Shown here one piece after another: positions 600 through 57,420 of a stretch of DNA of 64,000 nt. Position numbers and translations under genes: made by a program. The notes under the pieces are model-generated. The model was not told the origin of the DNA. It saw nothing but the letters and a program-made list of their open reading frames with translations, and made no database searches. Source of the stretch: Cololabis saira (Eukaryota > Chordata > Actinopteri > Beloniformes > Belonidae); assembly GCF_033807715.1 (NCBI RefSeq), contig NC_084596.1, positions 40,248,958 through 40,312,957 of the forward strand. The letters run 5' to 3'. How positions within the stretch are numbered: the first letter of the stretch is position 1; every line of letters starts with the position of its first letter.

Positions 600-1580
600 G
601 ACTAATTAAAGCTGAAAGCAGCGATGAACAGGCCCTCGCGCGTGCAATTTTCACCAATAAAGGTCAAGGACTCAAAACTAAGTCCGATGACACCACCCAC
701 AAGTCTTTATGTCAAACCATTCCAAAGATATAGCAGAAAATAGGGACTATCAAATATTGACCCATCAGAAGAAGGGGCTAATTCAGGCCAATGAATACCG
801 GGTTCGATGACACCACCCACATGTCTTTATCACAACCCATTCAAAAGTTATGGGAGAGAATAGGGACTATCAAATATCGACCAATCAGAATAAGGAGCGG
901 GGCTAATTTGCACCAATTATGTTCAAGGACTCAATACTGAGTCCGATGACACCACCCATGACTCTTTATGTCAAACCATTCAAAAGTTATGGCAGAAATA
1001 TCAAATATAGACCAATCAGATGAAGGGGGGGGCACGCTTTTTTGTGTCTATCGTCGCCACGGTAACGCTTTTGACTGAGAAAAGTAATGTGCATCGTCGC
1101 AGGATCAAGACGCACATTTTGATGTATAACACACCTGGGTGCACGTAACGGTTCGGGCCGCATTAACGGCAGAAGAAATGGCATAAATTGCGCCAAAATT
1201 ACATTATTAATCAATTCATTCAATTAATTCAAAATGCTCCTGTTCGGTTTCAGCCATGGGGCCAAGAGACTTTTCTTTAAGTTCGACATGATACAGGTGT
1301 GTACCGATTTTTGTGCATGTACGTCAAACTGTATCGTGGGGCTTGAGGCACAAAGTTTTCTAGGGGGCGCTGTTGAGCCATTAGGCCACGCCCATTAATG
1401 CAAACCATTAAATATCACATTTTTCGCCAGGCCTGGCTTGCGTGCAAAATTTGGTGACTTTTGGGGCACGTTTAGGGGGGCAAAAAGGCCCTCATTTCAT
1501 CGGAAAAATAAAAACGAGGATAAAAAAAAAAACAATTCCTACAGATACAATAGGGCCATCGCACTGTAAGTCCCTAATAA
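600..1580 (+). repeat. interspersed element with internal tandem repeats, shortened copy
   Basis: The left end (TTAAAGCTGAAAGCAGCGAT, near 606) and right end (ACAGATACAATAGGGCC then CCCTAATAA, near 1542-1576) match the two ends of the much longer element at 13284/23635-25562. Inside are three units of about 128 bp, each holding GATGACACCACCCA and CAATCAGA (near 690, 810 and 945), followed by the segment with GGCGCTGTTGAGCCATTAGG. I know similar sequence as a common teleost repeat, but I cannot assign a superfamily. It carries no coding capacity. The copy is older and shorter than the one at 23.6 kb, with fewer internal units. Confidence 0.75.
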
Positions 1581-4030: not shown

Positions 4031-4780
4031 CAGCCAGGGCAAACGTGGAGTGGAGCCACATAGTTTTTTGACCTCTCACTCTCACTCTGTCTAGCTCTCT
4101 TTTTTATTTCCTTATCTTGGATTATGTTTGTACCGTTGTTTATTTTTGAAGTAAACACTTGAACTTAATCAAGAGGATCCTGTGGAGGTTTTTGTCATTG
4201 ATGTTCATGACAACCAGAGAATGAGTACAGAGCATCAAGCATAAGGCTTCATTAATCAGGAAGCTACAGGTGGAAAAACAGACTGAAAGAATTAAAAGAG
4301 CAAACCGCAACACGCATAGCGCCGTTGTAAGTGTTTGGGTCTGTTACATGTATGACTGCTGCACATCGTTGCAATAAGCTGACAGGAGGATGTACGCCTG
4401 TTGTTTGGTTGTGAAGAAGATGCTCATGACGTTTTTCCTTTAATGAAACAGCCTCTATTGCACAATCAGCTCTAGAGGCTCCAGAACAGAGCCAGTCTCC
4501 TTTGTTAGTTAGTTCAGCTCGGCTCTGATGCTGCCAAAAGGTGATGCTGAACTTGACTCTTAGTCTGATAGAAGATATGCAACGTCATGCTGCAGGACCC
4601 AAGCTTCCTCAAGACGTCGTCCTCTGTCTCTTCCTGTATACCAGCTAAATGAATCACACCAGTAGCTCGTGTGGGCCGCTGTGAGTTCACACACGGGAGG
4701 TGAAATGGTAAACGGACAAGGTTTTTATGGGCCTCTTAAACTTGCTCATGTCCTTTAAAATATTTTACAATACCTTTCAT

Positions 4781-10981: not shown

Positions 10982-13283
10982 AGGTGCAGGCTCGTAGCCA
11001 GAGGCAGGTTGATGTAAAACAGAAAGACTTTAGTGGATTTTCTTACAACAACCATCTCACCTGAGACAGATGATTAGAAGAATACAAAAGTCACGACAAC
11101 ATACAAACACAACAGACACGATTCTGGCATGGAACAAGGGAAGATAGGAGTAAAAACCGAGGAAGGTAATGAATAGGCTAATGCGATGCAGGTGCGGCAA
11201 TCAGCGATCAAACGCAGGTGTGAAACACAGGCGCAGAGGCAAAATTAAAGACGATGCACAAGGCTGAAACTGCAGGAAAATAAAACAAGAAGTGACATTA
11301 TAAAGCCTCACACCAAAACAAAGAACACAACTAAATCTAAGGAAAATCCCAAGGCAAGGTCAACTGAACGAATTCAAGGAACAGATTTGCCAGTAAATGC
11401 AAACAATGACGACCCTGTGAAATCAAGAATGAACTCTACCCTGATAATGAAATAAATTTCATCTTGGAAATATTCATAATCGCCAGTGGCCTTTTTCTTA
11501 AAAAAAAAAGCCATTTTATTTCAACAACAGCCCCCTCTTCAGAAGACAGATTAAACGCCCACCACCAACACCATCACCACCACCATGGCATTTCGTTGCC
11601 ACAGCGAGCAGCTGCTTTCCATGAAAAAACTGAATACCCACGGCGCACGTTCTGCTCAGCATCATTTCAGCGTTACAGAGACAGATATTTCCCTCAGGAT
11701 TAGGTAGAAATCAAACAGAGCTAAACAAAAGAATTGTTTCTGCAGGTTTAGTGTTAACTTCGTTGCACCGGATTCAACATAGCCGCACAATCTTGGATAC
11801 ATGAGCTACTTAGTTGACTCTGGTAGCTCAACTAAAGCCTTTTTTCATTCAGACCACATCTAATAACAGTAGCTTTCCATCTCTGGAGCTCTTGTGGACT
11901 TTATGGGTTTATTGTCAAAGACTTTACGACCCTTATTTGATCCCTAAAATAAACAGAATACTATCCTGACAGTCGAGGAAGACCTAAATCCTCCATTAAT
12001 ATTGTGACTCTGGTTAAACCACTGACATATCAACACTGTATTTCCAAGACACATTAACAATAATCCCATCAGTCTAATGTGCACGCAAGGCCCTAAAGTA
12101 ATTGTAAGATTTCAGTGCTGAACATATGGCCTCAGAAACAATAGTGTTGCGAATGCCCTGGAGGTTTTTAATATGAAATTAAAACATCAATCACATTAAA
12201 GCGTGTACTTTCCTTCTCCCAGAACACGTCACGCGAAGAGCTGACTTCTGCATTATAATCCTAAGGTGAATGCATCTGGGCTCTGTTCGTAAATAACACA
12301 TGCAAATTGCAAGTCTCAAACATAATTGCGCGTTTTAGCGCTCTTCATCCCAGTTGTCACTTTAGGATATGAACATTAGTGGATATTAGAGTCTCCTGAC
12401 ACCGACGACACGCTAAAGTGCTTAACTAAAATGCTGCATGATGAAGAACTCAAATGGCCAAGCGTAATTTGTTAAAAATGACCTGATGGGAGGATTCTTT
12501 GTCCTTTTTCCATCATCTTATAGTTGAGTCAATTTTTTTTCTTCCCTTTTACAGGCCAAAGTTTACATTTGCTGCTCGGTTGTTATCTCTCCCTTGTTGC
12601 TAGCAGTTGGCCAGAATAGACATTTTTCTTTTTTTCTTTCCAGCAAATCATTTTTCATTCTTGCTGAAAACTGTTTAATTAATTCCAGAGGACTGTCGAA
12701 GTGTTTGGTTGCCTGACAAACGTGGATTCACGGCACATAAAAGAAACAAGAAGTATTATATCTTTTTATTTCTGTTTTGTTAAATGCACTTTCTGGTTAC
12801 AGAATTAATTGTATGCATGAAACCTGATGAATGTGAATCAGTGGCATGGAAACACAAGATTCCTGCTGCACTCTGCAACAGTCACACAATAGAAAGAAGC
12901 ACACTTAAGTGTGGTGTCCTTGTTTCAAGTGTTTGTTGGTGAAAGGATCTGCGTGGTCGCTGCACCTACTGTATAAGGACATTTGAAACCTCAGTGACGA
13001 GTCTGAATACAAGTACCTGACTTGTGAAGAAAAGAAATAAACAAAGAGAGAAGAGAAAACAAATGCAGCGACTACGTTTACTTATATTAAATAACATCAA
13101 TGACCATCTTTGGGAAGCCTTTTTGACATCTAAGTGCCATCCGAGGTGTCAAAGTTAAGAAAAGGCAGCTGAATAAACACAGAAACATGGAATCAGAATC
13201 ACCTTTAATGTTCAGGTTGGTGCAAGCAAACAAAGAATATCATTCAGCAGACTTTGTCAAGGTACCGTAAAAAATAAAATGAA
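10982..13283. other. unassigned sequence with a short repeat tail
   Basis: No gene found. Around 11560-11590 is a short ACCACCAACACCATCACC tract. Near 13193-13262 is a patch like GAATCACCTTTAATGTTCAG and GTGCAAGCAAACAAAGAAT, which resembles a common fish retroposon tail. The remainder is ordinary AT-rich sequence. Confidence 0.45.
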
Positions 13284-13301
13284 TTAAAGCTGCAAGCAGC
13301 G
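13284..13301 (+). repeat. left stub of the disrupted host element, including target duplication
   Basis: TTAAAGCTGCAAGCAGCG is the left end of the element whose remainder resumes at 23635. The last eight bases (AAGCAGCG, 13294-13301) are repeated at 23635-23642 as the target-site duplication of the palindromic insertion. Confidence 0.9.
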
Positions 13302-13416
13302 CAACCTGATCTCACAAAAATCCGTGAAATGCCCACGACCTCTCACCACTATTTTCCGTGGTACCAACACGGAAACTGGTAAAATTACGTGTGGGCACCA
13401 CGGATATTGTACCATG
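13302..13416 (+). repeat. left terminal inverted repeat of foldback element
   Basis: Starts CAACCTGATCTCAC and contains ACCTCTCACCACTATTTTCC and CGTGGTACCAACACGG. It is exactly repeated in reverse at 23520-23634. Short CCGTGG/CCACGG inverted pairs occur within it. Confidence 0.92.
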
Positions 13417-14897
13417 CAAAGTCAATGGGATCCGTGGTCGTGATATATACACGAATTATGACATTATTATTATTTATATATTATTCTTATTTATAGTGGC
13501 TAAATTATGCGTTTTTGTCGCGCAAGGTACGGTTTTTTACTGTCAGTTTGTAAAAACATGTTTTTAACGCTGTTTTAGCAGTGTTTTAATGAGGTTTTAA
13601 TCTGACCACCACGGATATAGTACTATGCAAAGTCAATGGGGTCCGTGGTCGTGATATATACACGAATTATGACATTATTATTATTTATATATTATTCTTT
13701 GTTATAGTGGCTAAATTATGCGTTTTTGTCGCGCAAGGTACTGATTTTTAATGTCAGTTTGTAAAAGCCCGTTTTTAACGCTGTTTTAGCAGTGTTTTAA
13801 TGAGGTTTTAATCTGACCACCACGGATATAGTACTATGCAAAGTCAATGGGGTCCGTGGCCGTGATATATACACGAATTATGACATTATTATTATTTATA
13901 TATTATTCTTTGTTATAGTGGCTAAATTATGCGTTTTTGGCGCGCAAGGTACTGATTTTTAATGTCAGTTTGTAAAAGCCCGTTTTTAACGATGTTTTAG
14001 CAGTGTTTTAATGAGGTTTTAATCTGACCACCACGGATATAGTACTATGCAAAGTCAATGGGGTCCGTGGTCGTGATATATACACGAATTATGACATTAT
14101 TATTATTTATATATTATTCTTTGTCATAGTGGCTAAATTATGCGTTTTTGGCGCGCAAGGTACTGATTTTTAATGTCAGTTTGTAAAAGCCCGTTTTTAA
14201 CGCTGTTTTAGCAGTGTTTTTATGAGGTTTTAATCTGACCACCACGGATATAGTACTATGCAAAGTCAATGGGGTCCGTGGTCGTGATATATACACGAAT
14301 TATGACATTATTATTATTTATATATTATTCTTTGTTATAGTGGCTAAATTATGCGTTTTTGGCGCGCAAGGTACTGATCTTTAATGTCAGTTTGTAAAAG
14401 CCCGTTTTTAACGCTGTTTTAGCAGTGTTTTAATGAGGTTTTAATCTGAGCACCACGGATATAGTACTATGCAAAGTCAATGCGGTCCGTGATATATACA
14501 CGAATTATGACATTATTATTATTTATATATTATTCTTTGTTATAGTGGCTAAATTATGCGTTTTTGTCGCGCAACGTACTGTTTTTTACTGTCAGTTTGT
14601 AAAAGCCTGTTTTTAACGCTGTTTTAGCAATGTTTTTATGAGGTTTTAATCTGACCACCACGGATATAGTACTATGCAAAGTCAATGGGGTCCGTGGTCG
14701 TGATATATACACGTTTTATGACATTATTATTATTTATATATTATTCTTTGTTATAGTGGCTAAATTATGCGTTTTTGTCGCGCAACGTACTGTTTTTTAC
14801 TGTCAGTTTGTAAAAGCCCGTTTTTAACGCTGTTTTAGCAGTGTTTTTATGAGGTTTTAATCTGACCACCACGGATATAGTAGCCTACTATGCAAAG
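13400..14897 (+). repeat. tandem array of ~209-bp units (left arm, outer block)
   Basis: Seven units, spaced at 209-210 bp in the regular part, as judged from the recurrence of CTATGCAAAGTCAATGG (near 13418, 13632, 13841, 14050, 14260, 14476 and 14684). Each unit has CCACGGATATAGTACTATGC followed by TCCGTGGTCGTGATATATAC, an AT-rich core and GTTTTTAACGCTGTTTTAGC. The 7-bp pair CCACGGA/TCCGTGG frames the perfect palindrome ATAGTACTAT, so every unit can form a hairpin. Non-coding. Confidence 0.92.
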
Positions 14898-15700
14898 CAA
14901 CCTGATCTCACAAAAGTCTGTGAAATGCCTACGACCTATTTCCGTGGTACCAACACGGAAAGTGGTATAATTCCGTGTGACCACCACGATATAGTACTAT
15001 GCAAAGTCAATGGGATCCATGGTCGTGATATACAAACGGATAATGCCCACGACCTATTTTCCGTGGTACCAACACGGAAAGTGCTATAATTCCGTGTGAC
15101 CAACACGGATATAGTACTGTGCAAAGTCAATGGGATCCGTGGTCGTGATATATACACGTTTTTTGACATTATTATTATTTATATATTATTCTTTGTTAAA
15201 GTGGCTAAATTATGCGTTTTTGTTGCGCAAGGTACGGTTTTTTACTGTCAGTTTGTAAAAACATGTTTTTAACGCTGTTTTAGCAGTGTTTTAATGAGGT
15301 TTTAATCTGACCACCACGGATATACTATGCAAAGTCAATGGGAGGCGTGGTCGTGATATATACACGTTTTATGACATTATTATTATTTATATATTATTCT
15401 TTGTTATAGTGTATAAATTATGCGTTTTTTGTCGCGCAACGTACTGTTTTTTACTGTAAGTTTGTAAAAGCACGTTTTTAACGCTGTTTTAGCAGTGTTT
15501 TAATGAGGTTTTAATCTGACCACCACGGATATAGTACTATGCAAAGTCAATGGGAGGCGTGGTCGTGATATATACACGAATTATGACATTATTATTATTT
15601 ATATATTATTCTTTGTTATAGTGGCTAAATTATGCGTTTTTGGCGCGCAAGGTACGGTTTTTACTGCCAGTTTGTAAAAACATGTTTTTAACGCTGTTTT
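14898..15700 (+). repeat. internal second copy of the terminus plus more ~209-bp units (left arm)
   Basis: CAACCTGATCTCAC recurs at 14898 inside the array and is followed by CCGTGGTACCAACACGGAAA twice (near 14940 and 15060) and then by further 209-bp units (near 15121, 15330 and 15543). The unit before it is cut at CTATGCAAAG. This suggests that a copy of the element end was inserted or recombined into the array before the palindrome formed, because the mirror arm has the same junction at 22440-22453. Confidence 0.85.
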
Positions 15701-15838
15701 AAGAAGAGACAGGCGATATTTAAAGTTTCTCCCATTTCGTCAACCACAGGGGATTCCCTGGGCGTCCCCTCTACGTCATAGAGTGACGAGGGGGGATCCT
15801 GATCACGTGACGGATGCCCCCGAATGAATTTTTAATGA

Positions 15839-15909
15839 ATGGTTCCGCGTTACACCAACGCAGAGCCTACGGCGTAGGGTACGCTCTGCGTCGATTTAAC
15901 GCGGACCAT
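15839..15909. repeat. 71-bp imperfect palindrome cassette (left arm)
   Basis: Begins ATGGTTCCGCGTTA and ends TAACGCGGACCAT, with CTACGGCGTAGG at the centre. A related cassette sits inside an unrelated hAT MITE at 36193-36250, so this is a recurring module in its own right. Confidence 0.8.
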
Positions 15910-16017
15910 AATTCAGGCTTTATTCTAAAGGATGCAGCGGCAAAATGTTGCAAGGATGTCTTTGTGGTTTCCATTCGGAGCTATAAATCGTTTTTTTCCT
16001 AATCTGCAGGTCAACAT

Positions 16018-16527
16018 ATGAGACGTAAAATGGTTTTACTGACACCGGTACTGTCGCTGCTGCTCTCCTGGGCTGCGGCGGAGACGTGCCGGGGGACGCG
16101 CTGCTTCGGCGGGGGCTCCAAGGACCCGAGCCCGGGCAGCAGAGCCTCCAGACCCCCGAGCACCATGGGCAGCACCCCGGGGCAGCACCCAGGGGAGATG
16201 GGCGCACCCCGGGCCGGGGCGCAGCAGCAGGACGCGCAGCCGCGGATTGCGAGCGCCTCCAGCGCTGCCGGCGCTGGAGGATGCTCCGGCGCGCACTGCT
16301 CCGGCTCGGGGAGACTCATCCCCATCCCCATCCAGCCCGCAAACGACACCCGGGACTGCCGGGGGATAGAGTGCAGGCTGCCGCTGAGGATCGGAGCCAA
16401 GCCCCGGGGAAGGTCCTGCGTCGGGGACGGCTGTGCCCCGGAGGAGGAGAGCGCGCCCCCGGACCCGGTGCGCAGAGGCGATTCTAGGGGGCCCCTCAAA
16501 CCAGCATTCATCACCGTTATGTTATAA
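16018..16527 (+). CDS. 169-aa putative secreted CxGxxC-repeat protein, captured gene-like sequence (left arm)
   Basis: I do not recognise the family. Residues 5-21 form a hydrophobic signal peptide ending near AAA|ETC. After it come exactly eight cysteines in four CxGxxC motifs (residues 24-29, 89-94, 114-119 and 134-139), separated by Pro/Gly/Ser/Ala-rich linkers, with one N-glycosylation site (NDT, 109-111). Upstream, a pyrimidine run ending in CTGCAG (16009) looks like a splice acceptor and TATAAAT lies at 15982. The stop codon is followed at once by AATAAA. The block is much more GC-rich than its surroundings. The first methionine opens the longest frame; Met5 is an equally plausible start. 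It lies within the foldback element and has an identical protein copy in the other arm. It could be an exon of a host gene captured by the transposon, or a gene belonging to the element. Expression is unknown. Confidence 0.55.
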   Translation: MRRKMVLLTPVLSLLLSWAAAETCRGTRCFGGGSKDPSPGSRASRPPSTMGSTPGQHPGEMGAPRAGAQQQDAQPRIASASSAAGAGGCSGAHCSGSGRLIPIPIQPANDTRDCRGIECRLPLRIGAKPRGRSCVGDGCAPEEESAPPDPVRRGDSRGPLKPAFITVML

Positions 16528-17091
16528 TAAACTGACACCAACGAAAACGTTATGAAATTTTGTTTTTCATTCCAAATGTTTTTCTTTACCTTCGGCTGAG
16601 CTGAATCGGCTCCATTTAAAACTTCCAGAATGAACGTTAAATTCTGTGCACACGACACTGTGTGTAGTTTTTTTTTTTTTTTTGACACTGTGTACAGGTG
16701 GATGATCCGTGATCATGGGAATGACTGCATGGGGGCCCTTGAGGGAGGTTTCTTACTGGCTACTGAGATGTCATTGATAAATGCCCTATGTTTGTTTAAG
16801 GAGGGAGGTGTGGTCATTGCGGTTACCACATTTTGAGATCTGTGGAGTAAAAACAGCCTTCAAAATACTTTTTTATTCCTCAATACCCCTGACAGGAAAC
16901 ACCTTTGTTTATAGTAATAATTAAAAAAAAAAATAATAATTCAATTTTTTTTTTTTTTTTTTTTTTTTGGGGGGGGCCTTATGGGCCCCCCAACAACTCG
17001 GGGCCCCAAGCAGTTGCCTGCCTTGCCTGTTCACAAGCTGCGCCCCTGCCGGTGCGTGTGTCCGACAGAGCCGCGCAGTTCCTGGCCGACT

Positions 17092-17818
17092 CATCATCAT
17101 CATCATCATCATCATCATCTTCATCATCATCATGATCATCTTCATCTTCATGATCATCTTCATCATCATCATGATCATCTTCATCTTCATGATCATCTTC
17201 ATCATCATCATGATCATCTTCATCATCATCATCATCATGATCATCTTCATCATCATCATCATCATCATCATCTTCATCTTCATGATCATCTTCATCATCA
17301 TCATCATGATCATCTTCATCATCATCTTCTTCATCTTCATCATCATCAATATCATGATCATCTTCATCTTCATCATCATCATTATGATCATCTTCATCAT
17401 CTTCATCTTCATCATCATCTTCATCATCTTCATCATCATCATCATGATCATCTTCATCATCATGATCATCTTCATCATCATCTTCTTCATCTTCATCATC
17501 ATCAATATCATGATCATCTTCATCATCATCATCATTATGATCATCTTCATCATCATCTTCATCATCATCATTATGATCATCATCATCATCTTCATCATCA
17601 TCATTATGATCATCTTCATCATCATCATCATCATCATGATCATCTTCATCTTCATCATCATGATCATCTTCATCATCATTATGATCATCTTCATCATCAT
17701 CATCATCATCATCATGATCAGCTTCATCATCATCATCATCTTCATCATCATCATCTTCATCATCATCATCATCATGATCATCTTCATCATCATCATGATC
17801 ATCTTCATCATCATCATG
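17092..17818. repeat. CAT/CTT trinucleotide tract (left arm)
   Basis: About 730 bp of TCATCA with regular CTTCAT and TGATCA interruptions. It produces long spurious poly-His, poly-Ile/Phe and poly-Met frames. It follows a poly-T/G stretch (16946-16977). The mirror tract in the right arm is about 50 bp longer. Confidence 0.97.
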
Positions 17819-18260
17819 TGACCTTCGGAAGTGTCAAAGGTCACCGCGTCTGTTGCTTTTCGGCCTGAAAAGACTATTTCGTGTCTTTTTTTGCATAGTT
17901 CCCTAACGCTTTGAGCTAAGACACTGAAATTTTAGATTATGTATCAGGAGGTGACTTTCATCCACTGTGCGGATTTTCAGATCTGTGTGACCTTCGGAAG
18001 TGTCAAAGGTCACCGTGTCTGTTGCTTTTCGGCCTGAAAACACTATTTCGTGTCTTTTTTTGCATAGTTCACTAACGCTTTGAGCTACGAGACTGAAATT
18101 CTAGACTCTGTATCAGGAGGTGACTCTCATCCCCTGTGCCGAGGTCCAGACCCGTGCCACCTTCGGAAGTGCCAAAGGTCACCGTGTGTGGTGCCTTTTT
18201 CGGGCCTTTGAAATGTTTTTTGAATAATTCACTAACGCTTTGAGCTGGGAGACTGATTTT
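17819..18260 (+). repeat. ~170-bp tandem repeats (left arm, inner)
   Basis: ACCTTCGGAAGTGTCAAAGG recurs near 17820 and 17992, with a divergent copy near 18159, a period of about 170 bp. Each unit also has TTTGCATAGTTC(A/C)CTAACGC and CAGGAGGTGACT. The sequence is unlike the 209-bp outer units, so the arm is a composite of two tandem families. Confidence 0.88.
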
Positions 18261-18574
18261 TGACTATGTTGCAATGCAGAAGGCCCTTTGCTAGGATCTT
18301 TTTGTCCTGTGGCTGTACGACTTCCACAGAGCTAGTTGGCATTGCAGAGGGTTCACAGAGTTGAGACTTGGCAAGCCCAATCCAAGCCCCATATGGAGGC
18401 CACAGGTCGAGTTTTACTTGGTTTGGTCAAATATTGTGGCAACGTTGTCCGTTCGAATGTTGGAAAAGGTGACGTTTCAAAGCCCCGCCCATCGAAAAGT
18501 ACAGGTCCGATCTGCACCAAACTAATGTCTGCCTGTTCAGGGGATGCCCCCAAACAACATATAAAAAATTCAGA
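18261..18574. repeat. inner end of left palindrome arm, single-copy part
   Basis: Sequence without internal repeats that pairs with 18727-19040 of the other arm. Paired 66- to 99-codon frames appear on both strands only because the arms mirror each other. Confidence 0.75.
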
Positions 18575-18726
18575 CTCCTAGCTAAAGGCGTTAGTGAACT
18601 ATGCAAAAAAAGACACAAAATAGGCCCTGTTCCATTAGTCAGGAGGCTCTCAGAGCTAGAGGTTTCTACACCCTCCTAACCAGCCAGAACATTTTAGAGG
18701 AAACACTGTTGCAGAAGTCATAGAAA
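18575..18726. other. 152-bp asymmetric spacer at the palindrome centre
   Basis: This segment does not pair with itself. Its first ~46 bp (GCGTTAGTGAACTATGCAAA and onward) match the 170-bp repeat as it reads in the right arm, so the left-arm repeat order continues in inverted form into the spacer. The rest is unique. It would form the loop of a hairpin. Confidence 0.8.
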
Positions 18727-19039
18727 TCTGAATTTTGTATATGTTGTTTGGGGGCATCCCCTGAACAGGCAGACATTAGTTTGGTGCAGATCGGACCTGT
18801 ACTTTTCGATGGGCGGGGCTTTGAAACGTCACCTTTTCCAACATTCGAACGGACAACGTTGCCACAATATTTGACCAAACCAAGTAAAACTCGACCTGTG
18901 GCCTCCATATGGGGCTTAGATTGGGCTTGCCAAGTCTCAACTCTGTGAACCCTCTGCAATGCCAACTAGCTCTGTGGAAGTCGTACAGCCACAGGACAAA
19001 AAGATCCTAGCAAAGGGCCTTCTGCATTGCAACATAGTC

Positions 19040-19482
19040 AAAAATCAGTCTCCCAGCTCAAAGCGTTAGTGAATTATTCAAAAAACATTTCAAAGGCCCG
19101 AAAAAGGCACCACACACGGTGACCTTTGGCACTTCCGAAGGTCGCACGGGTCTGGACCTCGGCACAGGGGATGAGAGTCACCTCCTGATACAGAGTCTAG
19201 AATTTCAGTCTCGTAGCTCAAAGCGTTAGTGAACTATGCAAAAAAAGACACGAAATAGTGTTTTCAGGCCGAAAAGCAACAGACACGGTGACCTTTGACA
19301 CTTCCGAAGGTCACACAGATCTGAAAATCCGCACAGTGGATGAAAGTCACCTCCTGATACATAATCTAAAATTTCAGTGTCTTAGCTCAAAGCGTTAGGG
19401 AACTATGCAAAAAAAGACACGAAATAGTCTTTTCAGGCCGAAAAGCAACAGACGCGGTGACCTTTGACACTTCCGAAGGTCA
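19040..19482 (-). repeat. ~170-bp tandem repeats (right arm, inner)
   Basis: Mirror of 17819-18260, with CCTTTGACACTTCCGAAGGT near 19290 and 19460 and a divergent copy near 19125. Confidence 0.88.
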
Positions 19483-19564
19483 CATGATGATGATGAAGAT
19501 GATCATGATGATGATGATGATGAAGATGATGATGATGAAGATGATGATGATGATGAATCTGATC

Positions 19565-19602
<38 letters not shown>

Positions 19603-20205
19603 GATGATCATAATGATGATGAAGATGAAGATGATCATGATGATGAAGATGATCATGATGATGATGATGAAGATGATGATGATGAAGATGATCATAATGA
19701 TGATGATGAAGATGATCATAATGATGATGATGATGAAGATGATCATAATGATGATGATGAAGATGATGATGATGAAGATGATCATGATATTGATGATGAT
19801 GAAGATGAAGAAGATGATGATGATGATGAAGATGATCATGATGATGATGATGATGAAGATGATCATGATGATGAAGATGATCATGATGATGATGATGAAG
19901 ATGATGATGATGATGATGATGAAGATGATGAAGATGATCATAATGATGATGATGAAGATGAAGATGATCATGATATTGATGATGATGATGAAGATGATCA
20001 TGATGATGATGAAGATGAAGATGAAGATGATCATGAAGATGAAGATGATCATGATGATGATGATGAAGATGATCATGATGATGATGATGATGATGATGAA
20101 GATGATCATGATGATGATGAAGATGATCATGAAGATGAAGATGAAGATGATCATGATGATGATGAAGATGATCATGAAGATGAAGATGATCATGATGATG
20201 ATGAA

Positions 20206-20258
<53 letters not shown>
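19483..20258. repeat. ATG/GAT trinucleotide tract (right arm)
   Basis: About 775 bp of GATGATGAAGATGATCAT-type repeats, the mirror of 17092-17818. The order of the interruptions differs from the left arm, so the two tracts have changed independently since the arms became paired. Confidence 0.97.
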
Positions 20259-20823
20259 GTCGGCCAGGAACTGCGCGGCTCTGTCGGACACACGCACCGG
20301 CAGGGGCGCAGCTTGTGAACAGGCAAGGCAGGCAACTGCTTGGGGCCCCGAGTTGTTGGGGGGCCCATAAGGCCCCCCCCCAAAAAAAAAAAAAAAAAAA
20401 AAAAAATTGAATTATTATTTTTTTTTTTTAATTATTACTATAAACAAAGGTGTTTCCTGTCAGGGGTATTGAGGAATAAAAAAGTATTTTGAAGGCTGTT
20501 TTTACTCCACAGATCTCAAAATGTGGTAACCGCAATGACCACACCTCCCTCCTTAAACAAACATAGGGCATTTATCAATGACATCTCAGTAGCCAGTAAG
20601 AAACCTCCCTCAAGGGCCCCCATGTAGTCCTTCCCATGATCACGGATCATCCACCTGTACACAGTGTCAAAAAAAAAAAAAAACTACACACAGTGTTGTG
20701 TGCACAGAATTTAACGTTCATTCTGGAAGTTTTAAATGGAGCCGATTCAGCTCAGCCGAAGGTAAAGAAAAACATTTGGAATGAAAAACAAAATTTCATA
20801 ACGTTTTCGTTGGTGTCAGTTTA

Positions 20824-21333
20824 TTATAACATAACGGTGATGAATGCTGGTTTGAGGGGCCCCCTAGAATCGCCTCTGCGCACCGGGTCCGGGGGCGCGC
20901 TCTCCTCCTCCGGGGCACAGCCGTCCCCGACGCAGGACCTTCCCCGGGGCTTGGCTCCGATCCTCAGCGGCAGCCTGCACTCTATCCCCCGGCAGTCCCG
21001 GGTGTCGTTTGCGGGCTGGATGGGGATGGGGATGAGTCTCCCCGAGCCGGAGCAGTGCGCGCCGGAGCATCCTCCAGCGCCGGCAGCGCTGGAGGCGCTC
21101 GCAATCCGCGGCTGCGCGTCCTGCTGCTGCGCCCCGGCGCGGGGTGCGCCCATCTCCCCTGGGTGCTGCCCCGGGGTGCTGCCCATGGTGCTCGGGGGTC
21201 TGGAGGCTCTGCTGCCCGGGCTCGGGTCCTTGGAGCCCCCGCCGAAGCAGCGCGTCCCCCGGCACGTCTCCGCCGCAGCCCAGGAGAGCAGCAGCGACAG
21301 TACCGGTGTCAGTAAAACCATTTTACGTCTCAT
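20824..21333 (-). CDS. 169-aa putative secreted CxGxxC-repeat protein (right arm copy)
   Basis: Mirror copy of the ORF at 16018-16527, with an identical 169-residue protein: signal peptide (residues 5-21), four CxGxxC motifs and one NDT glycosylation site. The one coding difference I could find is silent (CGG versus CGC, in the stretch near 21141), read as a Gly/Arg change only in other frames. The acceptor-like CTGCAG and the AATAAA overlapping the stop are kept. The two copies are convergent, with their 3' ends facing the palindrome centre. The near-identity points to recent formation or ongoing gene conversion. Function unknown; not assigned to any family. Confidence 0.55.
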   Translation of the reverse strand: MRRKMVLLTPVLSLLLSWAAAETCRGTRCFGGGSKDPSPGSRASRPPSTMGSTPGQHPGEMGAPRAGAQQQDAQPRIASASSAAGAGGCSGAHCSGSGRLIPIPIQPANDTRDCRGIECRLPLRIGAKPRGRSCVGDGCAPEEESAPPDPVRRGDSRGPLKPAFITVML

Positions 21334-21441
21334 ATGTTGACCTGCAGATTAGGAAAAAACCGATTTATAGCTCCGAATGGAAACCACAAAGACATCCTTG
21401 CAACATTTTGCCGCTGCATCCTTTAGAATAAAGCCTGAATT

Positions 21442-21512
21442 ATGGTCCGCGTTAAATCGACGCAGAGCGTACCCTACGCCGTAGGCTCTGCGTTGGTGTA
21501 ACGCGGAACCAT
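21442..21512. repeat. 71-bp imperfect palindrome cassette (right arm)
   Basis: Mirror of 15839-15909, with ends ATGGTCCGCGTTAAATCGAC and GTGTAACGCGGAACCAT. Confidence 0.8.
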
Positions 21513-21649
21513 TCATTAAAAATTCATTCGGGGGCATCCGTCACGTGATCAGGATCCCCCCTCGTCACTCTATGACGTAGAGGGGACGCCCAGGGAATCC
21601 CCTGTGGTTGACGAAATGGGAGAAACTTTAAATATCGCCTGTCTCTTCT

Positions 21650-22453
21650 TAAAACAGCGTTAAAAACATGTTTTTACAAACTGGCAGTAAAAACCGTACC
21701 TTGCGCGCCAAAAACGCATAATTTAGCCACTATAACAAAGAATAATATATAAATAATAATAATGTCATAATTCGTGTATATATCACGACCACGCCTCCCA
21801 TTGACTTTGCATAGTACTATATCCGTGGTGGTCAGATTAAAACCTCATTAAAACACTGCTAAAACAGCGTTAAAAACGTGCTTTTACAAACTTACAGTAA
21901 AAAACAGTACGTTGCGCGACAAAAAACGCATAATTTAGACACTATAACAAAGAATAATATATAAATAATAATAATGTCATAAAACGTGTATATATCACGA
22001 CCACGCCTCCCATTGACTTTGCATAGTATATCCGTGGTGGTCAGATTAAAACCTCATTAAAACACTGCTAAAACAGCGTTAAAAACATGTTTTTACAAAC
22101 TGACAGTAAAAAACCGTACCTTGCGCAACAAAAACGCATAATTTAGCCACTTTAACAAAGAATAATATATAAATAATAATAATGTCAAAAAACGTGTATA
22201 TATCACGACCACGGATCCCATTGACTTTGCACAGTACTATATCCGTGTTGGTCACACGGAATTATAGCACTTTCCGTGTTGGTACCACGGAAAATAGGTC
22301 GTGGGCATTATCCGTGTGTATATCACGACCATGGATCCCATTGACTTTGCATAGTACTATATCGTGGTGGTCACACGGTATTATACCACTTTCCGTGTTG
22401 GTACCACGGAAATAGGTCGTAGGCATTTCACAGACTTTTGTGAGATCAGGTTG
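21650..22453 (-). repeat. ~209-bp units and internal terminus copy (right arm)
   Basis: Mirror of 14898-15700. The internal end GTGAGATCAGGTTG lies at 22440-22453 and is joined to CTTTGCATAGTAGGC, the same junction as in the left arm. Confidence 0.85.
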
Positions 22454-23519
22454 CTTTGCATAGTAGGCTACTATATCCGTGGTGGTCAGATTAAAACCTC
22501 ATAAAAACACTGCTAAAACAGCGTTAAAAACGGGCTTTTACAAACTGACATTAAAGATCAGTACCTTGCGCGCCAAAAACGCATAATTTAGCCACTATAA
22601 CAAAGAATAATATATAAATAATAATAATGTCATAATTCGTGTATATATCACGACCACGGACCCCATTGACTTTGCATAGTACTATATCCGTGGTGGTCAG
22701 ATTAAAACCTCATAAAAACACTGCTAAAACAGCGTTAAAAACGGGCTTTTACAAACTGACATTAAAAATCAGTACCTTGCGCGCCAAAAACGCATAATTT
22801 AGCCACTATAACAAAGAATAATATATAAATAATAATAATGTCATAATTCGTGTATATATCACGACCACGGACCCCATTGACTTTGCATAGTACTATATCC
22901 GTGGTGCTCAGATTAAAACCTCATTAAAACACTGCTAAAACATCGTTAAAAACGGGCTTTTACAAACTGACATTAAAAATCAGTACCTTGCGCGCCAAAA
23001 ACGCATAATTTAGCCACTATAACAAAGAATAATATATAAATAATAATAATGTCATAATTCGTGTATATATCACGACCACGGACCCCATTGACTTTGCATA
23101 GTACTATATCCGTGGTGCTCAGATTAAAACCTCATTAAAACACTGCTAAAACATCGTTAAAAACGGGCTTTTACAAACTGACATTAAAAATCAGTACCTT
23201 GCGCGCCAAAAACGCATAATTTAGCCACTATAACAAAGAATAATATATAAATAATAATAATGTCATAATTCGTGTATATATCACGACCACAGACCCCATT
23301 GACTTTGCATAGTACTATATCCGTGGTGGTCAGATTAAAACCTCATTAAAACACTGCTAAAACAGCGTTAAAAACATGTTTTTACAAACTGACAGTAAAA
23401 AAACCGTACCTTGCGCGACAAAAACGCAAAATTTAGCCACTATAAATAAGAATAATATATAAATAATAATAATGTCATAATTCGTGTATATATCACGACC
23501 ACGGATCCCATTGACTTTG
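22454..23519 (-). repeat. tandem array of ~209-bp units (right arm, outer block)
   Basis: Five units (CCATTGACTTTGCATAGTAC near 22663, 22872, 23083 and 23296, and the first unit near 23508), against seven in the matching left block. This difference accounts for most of the arm length difference. Confidence 0.9.
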
Positions 23520-23634
23520 CATGGTACAATATCCGTGGTGCCCACACGTAATTTTACCAGTTTCCGTGTTGGTACCACGGAAAATAGTGGTGAGAGGTCG
23601 TGGGCATTTCACGGATTTTTGTGAGATCAGGTTG
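23520..23634 (-). repeat. right terminal inverted repeat of foldback element
   Basis: Exact reverse complement of 13302-13416, ending GTGAGATCAGGTTG directly before the target duplication AAGCAGCG. Confidence 0.92.
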
Positions 23635-25562
23635 AAGCAGCGATGAACGGGCCCTCGCACTCACGTCCACCGCCCCCCATAAGCATATCAGAAATGACAC
23701 CACCCACGACTCTCTATGTCAAACCATTCAAAAGTTATAGCAGAAAAAAGGAACAACCAATCAGAAGAAGGGGCGGGGCTAATTCAGGCCAATGAAGGTC
23801 AAGGACTCCATACAGAGTCTGATGACACCACCCACGACTCTCTATGTCAAACCATTCCAAAGTTATAGCAGAAAATCGGGACAACCAATCAGAAGAAGGG
23901 GCGGGGCTAATTAAGGCCAACGAAGCTTAAGAACTCATTACAGAGTCCCATGACACCACCTACGACTTCCTATGTCAAACCATTAAAAAGTTATAGCAGA
24001 AAAAAGGGACAACCAATCAGAAGAAGAGGCGGGGCTAATTCTGGCCAATGAAGGTCAAGGACTCCATAAAGAATCTGATGACACCACCCAGGACTCTCTA
24101 TGTCAAACCATTCCAATGTTATAGCAGAAAATCGGGACAACCAATCAGAAGAACGGGCGGGGCTAATTCAGGCCAATGAAGGTCAAGGACTCCATACAGA
24201 ATTTTATGACACCACCCACGACTCTCTATGTCAAACCATTCCAAAGTTATAGCAGAAAATCGGGACAACCAATCAGAAGAAGGGGCGGGGCTAATTAAGG
24301 CCAACGAAGCTTAAGGACTCATTACAGAGTCCCATGATACCACCCATGACTTCCTATGTCAAACCATTCAAAAGTTATAGCAGAAAAAAGGGACAACCAA
24401 TCAGAAGAAGGGGCGGGGCTAATTAAGGCCAACGAAGCTTAAGGACTCATTACAGAGTCCCATGACACCACCCACAACTCTCTATGTCAAACCATTCAAA
24501 AGTTATGGCAGAGAAAAGTATTCTAGGGGGCGCTGTTGAACCGTTAGGCCACGCCCATTAATGCAAACCATGAAATATCAAATTTATCGCCAAGTCTGGC
24601 TTGCATGCAAAATTTGGTGACTTTTGGAGAACTATCAAATATGGACCAATCACATGAAGGGGGGGTGTGCCTTTTGGCGTCTAGCGTCGCCACGGTAACA
24701 CTTTTGAAAGAGAAAAGTAATGCGTGTAGTCGCAGGATGTAGACGCACATTTTGATGTATAACACACCTGGGTGCACGTTACGGTTCGGGCTGAATTAAC
24801 TGCCGAAGGAATGGCATAAATTTAGCCAAAATGACACAATTTATTCAAAATGGCCGACATCCTGTTCGGTTTCGGCCATGGCTCCAAGAGACTTTTCTTT
24901 AAGTTGTGCCATGATACAGGTGTGTAGCGATTTTCGTGCATGTACGTCAAACCGTATTGTGGGGCTTGAGGCACAAAGTCTTCAAGGGGGCGCTGTTGAG
25001 CCATTTTGCCACGCCCATTAATGCAAACCATGAAATATCAAATTTATCGCCAGGCCTGGCTTGCATGCCAAATTTGGTGCCTTTTGGGGAACTATCAAAT
25101 ATGGACCAATCAGATGAAGGGGGGTGCGCTTGTTGGCGTCTAGCGTCGCCACGATAACACTTTTGAAAGAGAAAAGTAATGCGTGTAGTCGCAGGATGGA
25201 GACGCACATTTTGATGTATAACACATCTGGGTTCACGATACGGTTCGAGCTGAATTAATTCTCGAAGGAATGGCATATATTGCTCCAAAATTACGCGATT
25301 AATTCAGAATGTTCAAAATGGCCGACTTCCTGTTAGGTTTCGGCCATGGCGCCAAGAGACTTTTCTTTTAGTTGCGACATGATGTAAACCATTAAATATC
25401 AAATTTTTCGCCAGGCCTGACTTGCATGCAAAATTTGGTGACTTTTTGGGCACGTTTAGGGGGGCAAAAAGGCCCTCCTTTCGTCAGAAGAACGGAAGAA
25501 AAAAAAAAAAATTCCTACAGATACAATAGGGCCTTCGCACTGAAGGTGCTCGGGCCCTAATA
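23635..25562 (+). repeat. host element resumed after foldback insertion; tandem-repeat element
   Basis: Continues the stub at 13284-13301 with GCGATGAACGGGCCCTCGC. About seven units of ~128 bp follow (GATGACACCACCCACGACTC near 23695, 23821, 23950, 24075, 24208, 24335 and 24460). Then come two ~460-bp units starting GGGGGCGCTGTTGA (near 24525 and 24985) and a shortened third (near 25380). The right end reads ACAGATACAATAGGGCCTTC and GGGCCCTAATAA. It has the same ends as the copy at 600-1580 and no coding capacity. Spliced, the element would be about 1.94 kb. Confidence 0.82.
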
Positions 25563-55486: not shown

Positions 55487-55978
55487 ATCATCATCATCAT
55501 CAGCATCATCGTTTATTAGTCAGACTCGAGGTCCATAATAAAAACATACAACACTCAATACATAAGAACACAGTGCGACACAAGACAGTTATACCAATGT
55601 TTCCACAGAGGTGAGCAATATCTCACGTCACAAACACGAGGGCTAACCAGCTGAGCAATGATGTCACTCTGAGAAACATTTAGTCTGCAGATAAAACTAT
55701 ACATCAGATGTCTAAGCAAGGCCTGGAATGAGTTGACTCTCACTTTACAGAACAGCTCACTTGCACTACATCATCTCGGCTGTTTCAATAGTATCCTCAA
55801 GCAATCATTGTAAGCAACCTGCAACTTTTGAATGCTTGCCTTCTTAAATTTACTCCATAAAGGAGCCGTATAGAGCGGGATACAGTATGCCCTAAAGAGA
55901 CAGATCTTCACATGGTCAGAACACATGTTAAATGTCCTTCTTAGCATGTTTGCCTGAGCATAAAGGACTCGGCACAAA
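55487..55978 (-). pseudogene. second LINE 3' fragment with microsatellite tail
   Basis: The minus strand reads YAQANMLRRTFNMCSDHVKI, CLFRAYCIPLYTAPLWSKFK, IQKLQVAYNDCLRILLKQPR, then in another frame NSFQALLRHLMYSFICRLN. I recognise this as the C-terminal region of a different, widespread fish non-LTR retrotransposon. It ends in a short (ATG)n-like tail at 55487-55512, as expected for a LINE 3' end. The upstream side is cut at 55978, where foldback-family sequence begins. Confidence 0.8.
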
Positions 55979-56624
55979 CAGTACCTTGCGTGACAAAAAC
56001 TCATAATTTAGCCACTATAACAAAGAATAATATATAAATAATAATAATGTCCTAATCCGTATATATATCACGACCACGGAATCCATTGATTCGCATTGTA
56101 CAATATCTGTGGTGCTCCTATTAAAACCTCAATAAAACACTGCTAAAACAGCATTAAAAACATGCTTTTACAAACTGACAGTAACAAACAGTAACTTGTG
56201 CATCAAAAACTCATAATTTAGCCACTGTAACAAAGAATAATATATAAATAATAATAATGTCATAATCCGTGTATATATCACGACCATGGAATCCATTGAT
56301 TCGCATAGTACTATATCCGTGGTGCTCCCATTAAAACCTCAATAAAAAACTGCTAAAACAGCGTTAAAAACATGCTTTTACAAACTGACAGTAACAAACA
56401 GTACCTTGCACGACAAAAACTCATAATTTAGCCACTATAACAAAGAATAATATATACATAATAATAATGTCATATTCCGTGTATGTATCACGACAACGGA
56501 TCCCATTGACTTTGCATGGTACAATATCCGTGGTGCTAACAAGGAAATATACCACTTTCCGTGGTGGTACCACGGAAAGTGGTGAGAGGTCGTGGGCATT
56601 TCACAGATTTTTGTGAGATCAGGT
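55979..56624 (-). mobile_element. one-sided copy of the foldback family
   Basis: Three ~210-bp units (CAGTACCTTGCGTGAC-type starts near 55979, 56190 and 56398) and then the terminus with GGTACCACGGAAAGTGGTGA, CATTTCACAGATTTTTGTGA and GATCAGGTTG ending at 56624. It corresponds to the outer right arm of the palindrome at 23.0-23.6 kb but has no opposite arm. The units differ from those in the palindrome at many positions, so this copy is older. Confidence 0.87.
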
Positions 56625-57420
56625 TGACCTGTAGACAGGTAACCTGGTCCTCATGAACAAAGTGCTCCAGATGTGAAGGGTTTCTTCTCCACACTGCATG
56701 TTTCAGCTGTTTCCACAGATGTTCAGCAGCATTTAGATCAGGGCTGTTAAAGGGGCCGAATAGTCCACGTGACCTGTGACTGAGACCAAGCTTTCTGACT
56801 CTGGGCAGCACATTTCCCTCCAGAACGCTTTGATACCTCCACAGGCCGAAGACGGCCTGCGTCAGACGCAGCAAAGCAGGTCCAAAACAGAACCAGATCT
56901 CCGTCATGTTTCACAGTAGCTACGGTCTTCCTGTCTTTGAATCCTTCAGTTCTGCTGCATCTGTGAACGTAGAGCTGATGTGACTTGTCAGAAAGCATTT
57001 GTTTTCTTCTCAACTGTACAAAGCACTTTCTCCAAGAAACTTTGTGGCTTGTCAACATGCATCTTGACAAAGTCCAGTCTGGCTTTTTCATGATTTGCTT
57101 TCAACAGCGGAGTCCTCCTTGGCTGTTCACCTCTCAGACAGTGATTATTGATGTGATCCGGCACTGATGTACCTTGACCTTTTAGTTCACCTTGAATCCC
57201 TTTGGAGTTGTTCTGGGCTCCTCGGTTAGAATTCCTATTATCCGTCTCTTCGATTTGTCATCAGTTTTCCTCTTCTGTCAACGTCCAGGGAGGCTGGCTG
57301 TGGATCCTAAACGTCTGGATGAAATGTACAACTGTTGTTGCTGGAACATCAACATCATGCTTGGAGGTGGTTTTCTAGCCTTCAACATGCTTGTCTACAA
57401 TTTTCTCTAATGGGAGGTTA
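56625..57420 (-). pseudogene. Tc1-like transposase relic
   Basis: The minus strand holds pieces of a Tc1/mariner-type DDE transposase: WRKCFVQLRRKQMLSDKSHQ, LYVHRCSRTEGFKDRKTVAT, VKHDGDLVLFWTCFAAS (near 56850-57050), then VLEGNVLPRVRKLGLSHR, and NSPDLNAAEHLWKQLKHAV (56640-56800). The last block corresponds to [11 protein letters not shown], which carries the third catalytic acid. The middle block with the second Asp is deleted, and frames change. The part above 57130 may be its N-terminal half or a neighbouring repeat; I could not read it with confidence. It is directly adjacent to the foldback end at 56624. Confidence 0.78.

Follow-up and report, generated by a model that had tools for sequence, protein, structure and literature searches.

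A recent foldback transposon family with a host exon mirrored in both arms

How does a palindrome of more than 10 kb come to stand almost perfect in a fish genome, what does it carry, and how do its two arms stay alike? We asked this of a 10,333-bp element at positions 13302..23634 of a 64,000-nucleotide stretch of Cololabis saira DNA, hereafter the window (G000:C10:40248958-40312957), in a genome of 1.146 Gb. C-numbers denote contigs and L-numbers sampled loci, all from this same genome. We consider it highly likely that the element belongs to a large, recent and apparently non-autonomous foldback family, one branch of which captured a host exon and mirrored it in both arms by copying between arms. 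An earlier note, made from the letters of the window, had described a foldback transposon with an 8-bp target duplication; alignment of the arms and comparison of the flanks reproduced its palindrome coordinates, arms, spacer, outer ends and duplication. That description was too narrow, and it overlooked the captured exon, a hAT-like insert within it and the signs of copying between arms.

The window palindrome and its family

The element is 99% palindromic and is laid out as follows.

13294..13301: left target-site duplication, AAGCAGCG
13302..18574, plus strand: left arm, 5,273 bp (arm alignment)
18575..18726: unpaired central spacer, 152 bp (arm alignment)
18727..23634, minus strand: right arm, 4,908 bp (arm alignment)
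23635..23642: right target-site duplication, AAGCAGCG
13396..15701, plus strand: subterminal array of ~211-bp tandem units, in which an internal copy of the terminal sequence intervenes at 14898
21650..23540, minus strand: mirror array of ~211-bp units, two fewer, with an internal end copy at 22440-22453
17092..17817, plus strand: imperfect TCA array (tandem-repeat analysis)
19484..20257, minus strand: mirror TCA array, where the plus strand reads ATG (tandem-repeat analysis)
17817..18199, plus strand: 169-bp tandem units near the centre (tandem-repeat analysis)
19103..19484, minus strand: mirror 169-bp tandem units (tandem-repeat analysis)

The two arms agree at 4,759 of 4,844 aligned columns. 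Identity is 4,105/4,129 (99.4%) outside the TCA array and 654/715 within it, and it stands at 584/586 in the captured segment before the insert and 572/575 in the insert itself. The difference in arm length is made up of one 416-bp gap, corresponding to two ~210-bp units, and small gaps. The outer ends, CAACCTGATCTCAC / GTGAGATCAGGTTG, begin with CA and close with TG, and the AAGCAGCG duplication is exact on both flanks, interrupting a host repeat. Within the sequence examined, this repeat is found uninterrupted, with at most three edits, at three other loci: window ~604-639, a C1 locus (L019 and L058) and L028. The palindrome is a genuine, complete insertion of a foldback-type transposon. Directly to the right of the element, the interrupted host repeat contains a 128-bp tandem array of 6.4 copies (23694-24518), and diverged copies of the 128-bp unit also occur near window 687-1033 and in L058.

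The exact 30-bp end is present in 765 genomic copies (375 forward and 390 reverse), against 0 for its backwards control. The earlier note had suggested a search with the 115-bp terminus for further copies and a transposase; this search found the family, with 1,603 first-look candidates. Forty of these 1,603 were scored; all were identical to the query and lay on C1-C5, and 32 of them formed 16 facing pairs. When flanks were compared in 30 complete elements (21 + 9), an exact 8-bp duplication was present in 27, so that the duplication claimed for the window held up when other copies were checked for insertion without one. The exceptions were L014, with one mismatch, and L019 and G000:C2:11776150-11803917 (27.8 kb), each with 7 bp. 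Among 21 elements, none of 420 mismatched pairings of left and right flanks shared an 8-bp duplication. With 765 end copies against 0, and 27/30 duplications against 0/420, chance is excluded as the source of the window's ends and duplication.

Across 17 elements the outer 300 bp diverge by a median of 0.7% from one element to another, and the sampled elements have therefore been active recently. The family is large and recently active, with several hundred copies. The shortest sampled member measures 187 bp (L059) and the longest 27.8 kb; lengths of ~7 kb are the most frequent in the sample, and elements of that length are 68-84% palindromic. Over 18 elements the palindromic fraction spans 36-100%, falling below half in L017 and L060. 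The window element is neither isolated nor the longest: several hundred recent copies exist, and longer ones include elements of 11.3, 11.3, 11.9 and 13.6 kb with matching 8-bp duplications and the one of 27.8 kb with a 7-bp duplication. The features of the foldback class are present, namely arms that make up the bulk of the element, ~211-bp subrepeats and a nearly fixed duplication length.

The captured exon and its insert

Each arm of the window element holds a segment of a host gene, divided by an insert.

15887..16472, plus strand: captured host-gene segment with intron end, splice acceptor and signal-peptide exon (donor comparison)
16018..16527, plus strand: the captured exon's open frame, with its ATG at 16018 or 16030, ending within the hAT-like insert
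16473..17048, plus strand: hAT-like insert, 576 bp, ends CAGAGGCG / CGCCCCTG, inside the captured exon
17049..17091, plus strand: remainder of the captured exon beyond the insert, to the capture breakpoint (donor comparison)
20258..20300, minus strand: mirror copy of that remainder, placed by symmetry
20301..20878, minus strand: the hAT-like insert again, identically placed in the right arm, 578 bp
20824..21348, minus strand: mirror open frame of the captured exon, stop to stop
20879..21464, minus strand: mirror copy of the captured segment, outer border placed by symmetry

The GC-rich frame at 16003-16527 matched eight homologous proteins of 199-252 amino acids at 38-44% identity. These are presumably fish proteins, and they share an apparent signal peptide as well as a conserved block that ends in CDIKPG. 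The donor gene could not be named from Pfam and PDB searches: Pfam returned for the exon frame nothing but a DUF1180 match below threshold (E 0.062; 14.2 bits where the cut-off is 27.7) and for three of the eight homologues nothing at E up to 1, and the PDB search of the exon frame gave nothing below E 0.17. Within its own genome the exon had 118 matches (all 148 candidates were scored), which merged into 92 copies. Sixty-eight of these form 34 inward-facing pairs, 0.05-11 kb apart, and 24 are unpaired. The pairing counted inward-facing copies only, and no outward-facing pairs within 12 kb were seen by eye in the copy list.

One unpaired copy, C22:32063722-32064228, contains the whole exon through CDIKP, where a likely splice donor, CAG|GTCTGC, follows; upstream of the exon stands the intron end CCTAATCCACAG. 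Judged from its sequence, this copy is the donor of the capture or an intact relative of the donor. The stretch that it shares with the window, ~630 bp there and 683 bp in the donor, begins inside the upstream intron and ends in the exon at base GCCGACT, and the TCA array begins directly after this breakpoint. Aligned with the donor over 406-441 columns, twenty sampled copies and the two arms of the window element show 93-95% identity. This comparison shows that ~630 bp of a host gene, comprising an intron end, a splice acceptor and a signal-peptide exon, were captured as DNA in one branch of the family. At the left capture border lies a short inverted-repeat stretch (15840-15905; TTCCGCGTTACACC...ATTTAACGCGGACC), by eye resembling a small miniature inverted-repeat transposable element. 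In the donor intron, a right end resembling that of this stretch stands at the corresponding position and may mark the mode of capture.

The insert has CAG-type ends, CAGAGGCG / CAGGGGCG, and an 8-bp duplication, CCGGTGCG, and the same insert with the same duplication is present in both window arms. A CAG-type end motif is taken as a sign of hAT elements; we call the 576-bp insert hAT-like only, since it has no transposase. Among 20 sampled exon copies, 13 enter such an insert (only its start was sampled), six are without it and L071 is rearranged at that point. The six insert-free copies (L074-L078 and L080) read straight across the site, and the donor too is without the insert. All six belong to inward pairs, one arm each, and within every such pair exon span and open-frame length are equal; the partner arms were compared by span and frame length alone. 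Accordingly, an exon-bearing palindrome very probably existed before the insert, which later came into both arms.

Proposed copying between the arms and its alternatives

One arm seems to have been copied onto the other, as the insert, a deletion in L011 and net indels all appear in both arms. In L011 the same deletion junction, absent from the window, is found in both arms. Net indel was equal between the arms in 15 of 16 comparable exon pairs, a result reached by 0 of 100,000 re-pairings, although this count is not a probability, since the elements share ancestors. A transposase supplied in trans would cut at the element ends and insert with an 8-bp stagger, and changes in one arm would pass to the other by conversion, or the palindrome would be rebuilt from one arm. 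Such copying would keep the 10-kb mirror image intact and spread newly acquired host DNA into both arms, and each copy would thereby become a long inverted repeat of the host exon.

Several observations weigh against this account. The comparison rule was not met by 18 of the 34 exon pairs, and one of the 16 comparable pairs, C1:57407355, differs between its arms by 15 bp. An arm's own partner was strictly nearest in 1/34 cases over the outer 300 bp of 17 elements (re-pairing 0/10,000) and in 4/24 cases over the inner 590 bp of 12 elements (re-pairing 213/10,000); these nearest-arm tests are weak because the copies are nearly identical anyway. Shared changes were perhaps inherited from one ancestor, and separate copying events may be few. 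The loci were chosen, as the best-scoring and first-listed, for identical ends on C1-C5, which biases the sample to young copies. Finally, no transposase with these ends was found, and mobilisation in trans is thus concluded by default.

The mirror structure might instead have formed afresh in each element, through a strand switch during replication or repair inside one arm, and not through conversion between standing arms. Fresh formation would explain both the identical inserts and deletions in the two arms and the wide range of palindromic fractions across the 18 elements. However, the arms of one element can differ in their number of tandem units, as the 416-bp gap in the window illustrates, and carry scattered mismatches, unlike a fresh copy, although later change could have produced either. 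As the two window arms have unequal numbers of units and are set apart by scattered changes, we lean to conversion and regard re-formation as rather unlikely. An artefact of assembly or library, in which the assembly took up a fold-back or chimeric long read, is scarcely conceivable here. Foldback artefacts in long reads are documented (PMC12870357; this and the other papers cited are represented by excerpts), but both outer ends of the window element are its own terminus bounded by an exact 8-bp duplication, as likewise in 27 of 30 elements, one arm has two tandem units more than the other, 61/715 positions of the TCA array do not match between them, and uninterrupted copies of the target repeat exist elsewhere. 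The earlier note's judgement that this is a foldback-type transposon and not a simple assembly artefact is borne out by the same duplications, arm differences and uninterrupted host repeat.

The presence of the exon in so many arms could also reflect selection that preserves it, either as part of the element's coding sequence or as an exon newly used by the host. In line with this, 112 of the 118 matched exon stretches are without a stop, and the splice acceptor and signal peptide are preserved in aligned copies. Yet mismatches to the donor are spread about evenly over codon positions (7, 9 and 12 in the left window arm), so we see no sign of selection keeping the frame. The reading frame is partly shifted relative to the donor in 22 of 22 compared copies, the lengths of L079 and L080 break the frame, and the open frames are explained by the high identity among exon copies. 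Protein identities of 68-92%, considered together with the open frames as a mark of selection, were rejected as such, the low values arising from local frame shifts and indels in similar DNA. Retention of the exon by selection is thus very improbable, and we favour an exon captured in one branch and carried in both arms by arm copying.

Mobilisation, relatives and possible consequences

No transposase was recognised in 16 translated elements, the window's and 15 other complete ones. Frames of at least 110 amino acids in the 15 others consist largely of simple repeats or tandem units only, those of L009 and L012 starting with ~48 non-repeat residues. The window element has additional frames: those of the captured exon, those of the TCA array, and others that overlap within the same GC-rich stretch. 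The family is presumably non-autonomous and mobilised in trans, and the earlier note's proposal to that effect is probably correct. Long frames in L024 and L027 were considered as the missing transposase and rejected, being by eye presumably retroelement frames, to judge from their motifs. The L027 frame (L027:3809-7117, minus strand) spans 1,103 residues inside a family element of 11.9 kb whose 8-bp duplications match, and it is by eye a retroelement-type insertion.

CA..TG ends with 8-bp duplications fit several superfamilies, and the 7-bp exceptions do not decide between them. A 7-8-bp duplication is compatible with the P superfamily, KDZ/Zisupton and hAT alike and is not specific. P elements duplicate 8 bp, and Mutator elements 8-11 bp, typically 9. 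Zisupton elements have 8-bp and Kyakuja elements 7-bp duplications, with CA..TG ends stated for Kyakuja (PMC12730594). The P-like domain PF21787 had 52 matches in the genome and the KDZ domain PF18758 had 17, several with identical scores; by eye none of either lay inside elements of known limits, and few limits are known. The P-like match at C5:43855209 is 4.9 kb away from an exon pair; the match list contains no mirror partner for it, and it probably lies outside that element. Three P-like matches (C8:40638419, C15:26119649 and C22:36284308) have identical scores and 285-residue open frames, suggesting recent P-type activity in the genome. Four KDZ matches (C3:54273988, C17:30383569, C12:26919204 and C7:42730725) share scores and spacing, which suggests a recently active KDZ element.

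The sea-urchin foldback element is TU, and Drosophila FB and TU share the long inverted arms that define the class; neither FB nor TU is known to carry host-gene material in both of its arms. Pack-type DNA transposons carry genomic fragments of host genes, introns included, whereas in our family the captured piece is present twice, as mirror images, once in each arm. Gene capture by transposable elements is discussed in PMC6431247. Foldback elements are described from Drosophila and sea urchin (PMC4079207), and among them Tetris of Drosophila virilis has an outer domain, ~220-bp tandem units, an inner domain and a variable middle, with no coding capacity and 8-10-bp duplications; its authors assigned it to Mutator (PMC4079207). 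Our family resembles Tetris in its long inverted arms, in the order of outer end, ~211-bp units, inner domain and variable middle, and in lacking coding capacity. It differs in having arms of 4.9-5.3 kb, against at most 1.7 kb in Tetris, and several hundred ends, against three structurally complete copies, and the excerpts of that description report no host exon in the Tetris arms (PMC4079207). Galileo, a Drosophila element of the P superfamily, has arms that are 98-100% identical within one copy, and their growth has been ascribed to recombination or conversion (PMC3573991). Long, internally repetitive arms are common to Galileo and our family, and one Galileo subfamily has ~210-bp units; Galileo differs in its 7-bp duplications, arms of at most 1.26 kb and known transposase, where we found none (PMC3573991). 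The family is foldback by structure and works like Tetris and Galileo, from which it differs in arm length, copy number, host group and the mirrored exon. Neither a fish foldback family nor a foldback element with a host exon in both arms was reported among the literature matches listed, as judged by titles and the beginnings of abstracts, and none of the papers searched mentions the terminal 14-mers.

The family is a young foldback burst, apparently in a vertebrate, with arms of up to 5 kb, whereas Tetris and Galileo are, in the excerpted sources, fly elements with arms below 2 kb. How foldback arms remain alike, a long-standing question, becomes directly testable, because capture, insert, copying and spread can be ordered against an identified donor and insert-free relatives.

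The exon is oriented inward in both arms of each of the 34 pairs. An RNA transcribed across such an element would therefore contain the sense followed by the antisense exon and fold back as one long hairpin. If expressed and diced, the hairpin would act against the donor gene, and arm copying would keep it near-perfect. At least 34 palindromes might in this way act as natural hairpin-RNA genes, whose small RNAs would lower expression of the C22 donor gene. We rate this as quite improbable, because vertebrate somatic cells respond poorly to long double-stranded RNA by RNA interference. If true, the transposon family would be a self-renewing reservoir of RNA interference against a host gene. The family also provides a well-defined natural setting in which to ask, for an animal, whether a host gene is silenced by inverted repeats that a transposon has made of one of its exons.

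An Rfam search of 13000-24000 gave 0 matches. Elsewhere in the window lies one further relative of the family, for which neither partner end nor duplication was found.

55976..56626, minus strand: truncated, one-ended family relative, ~90% identical

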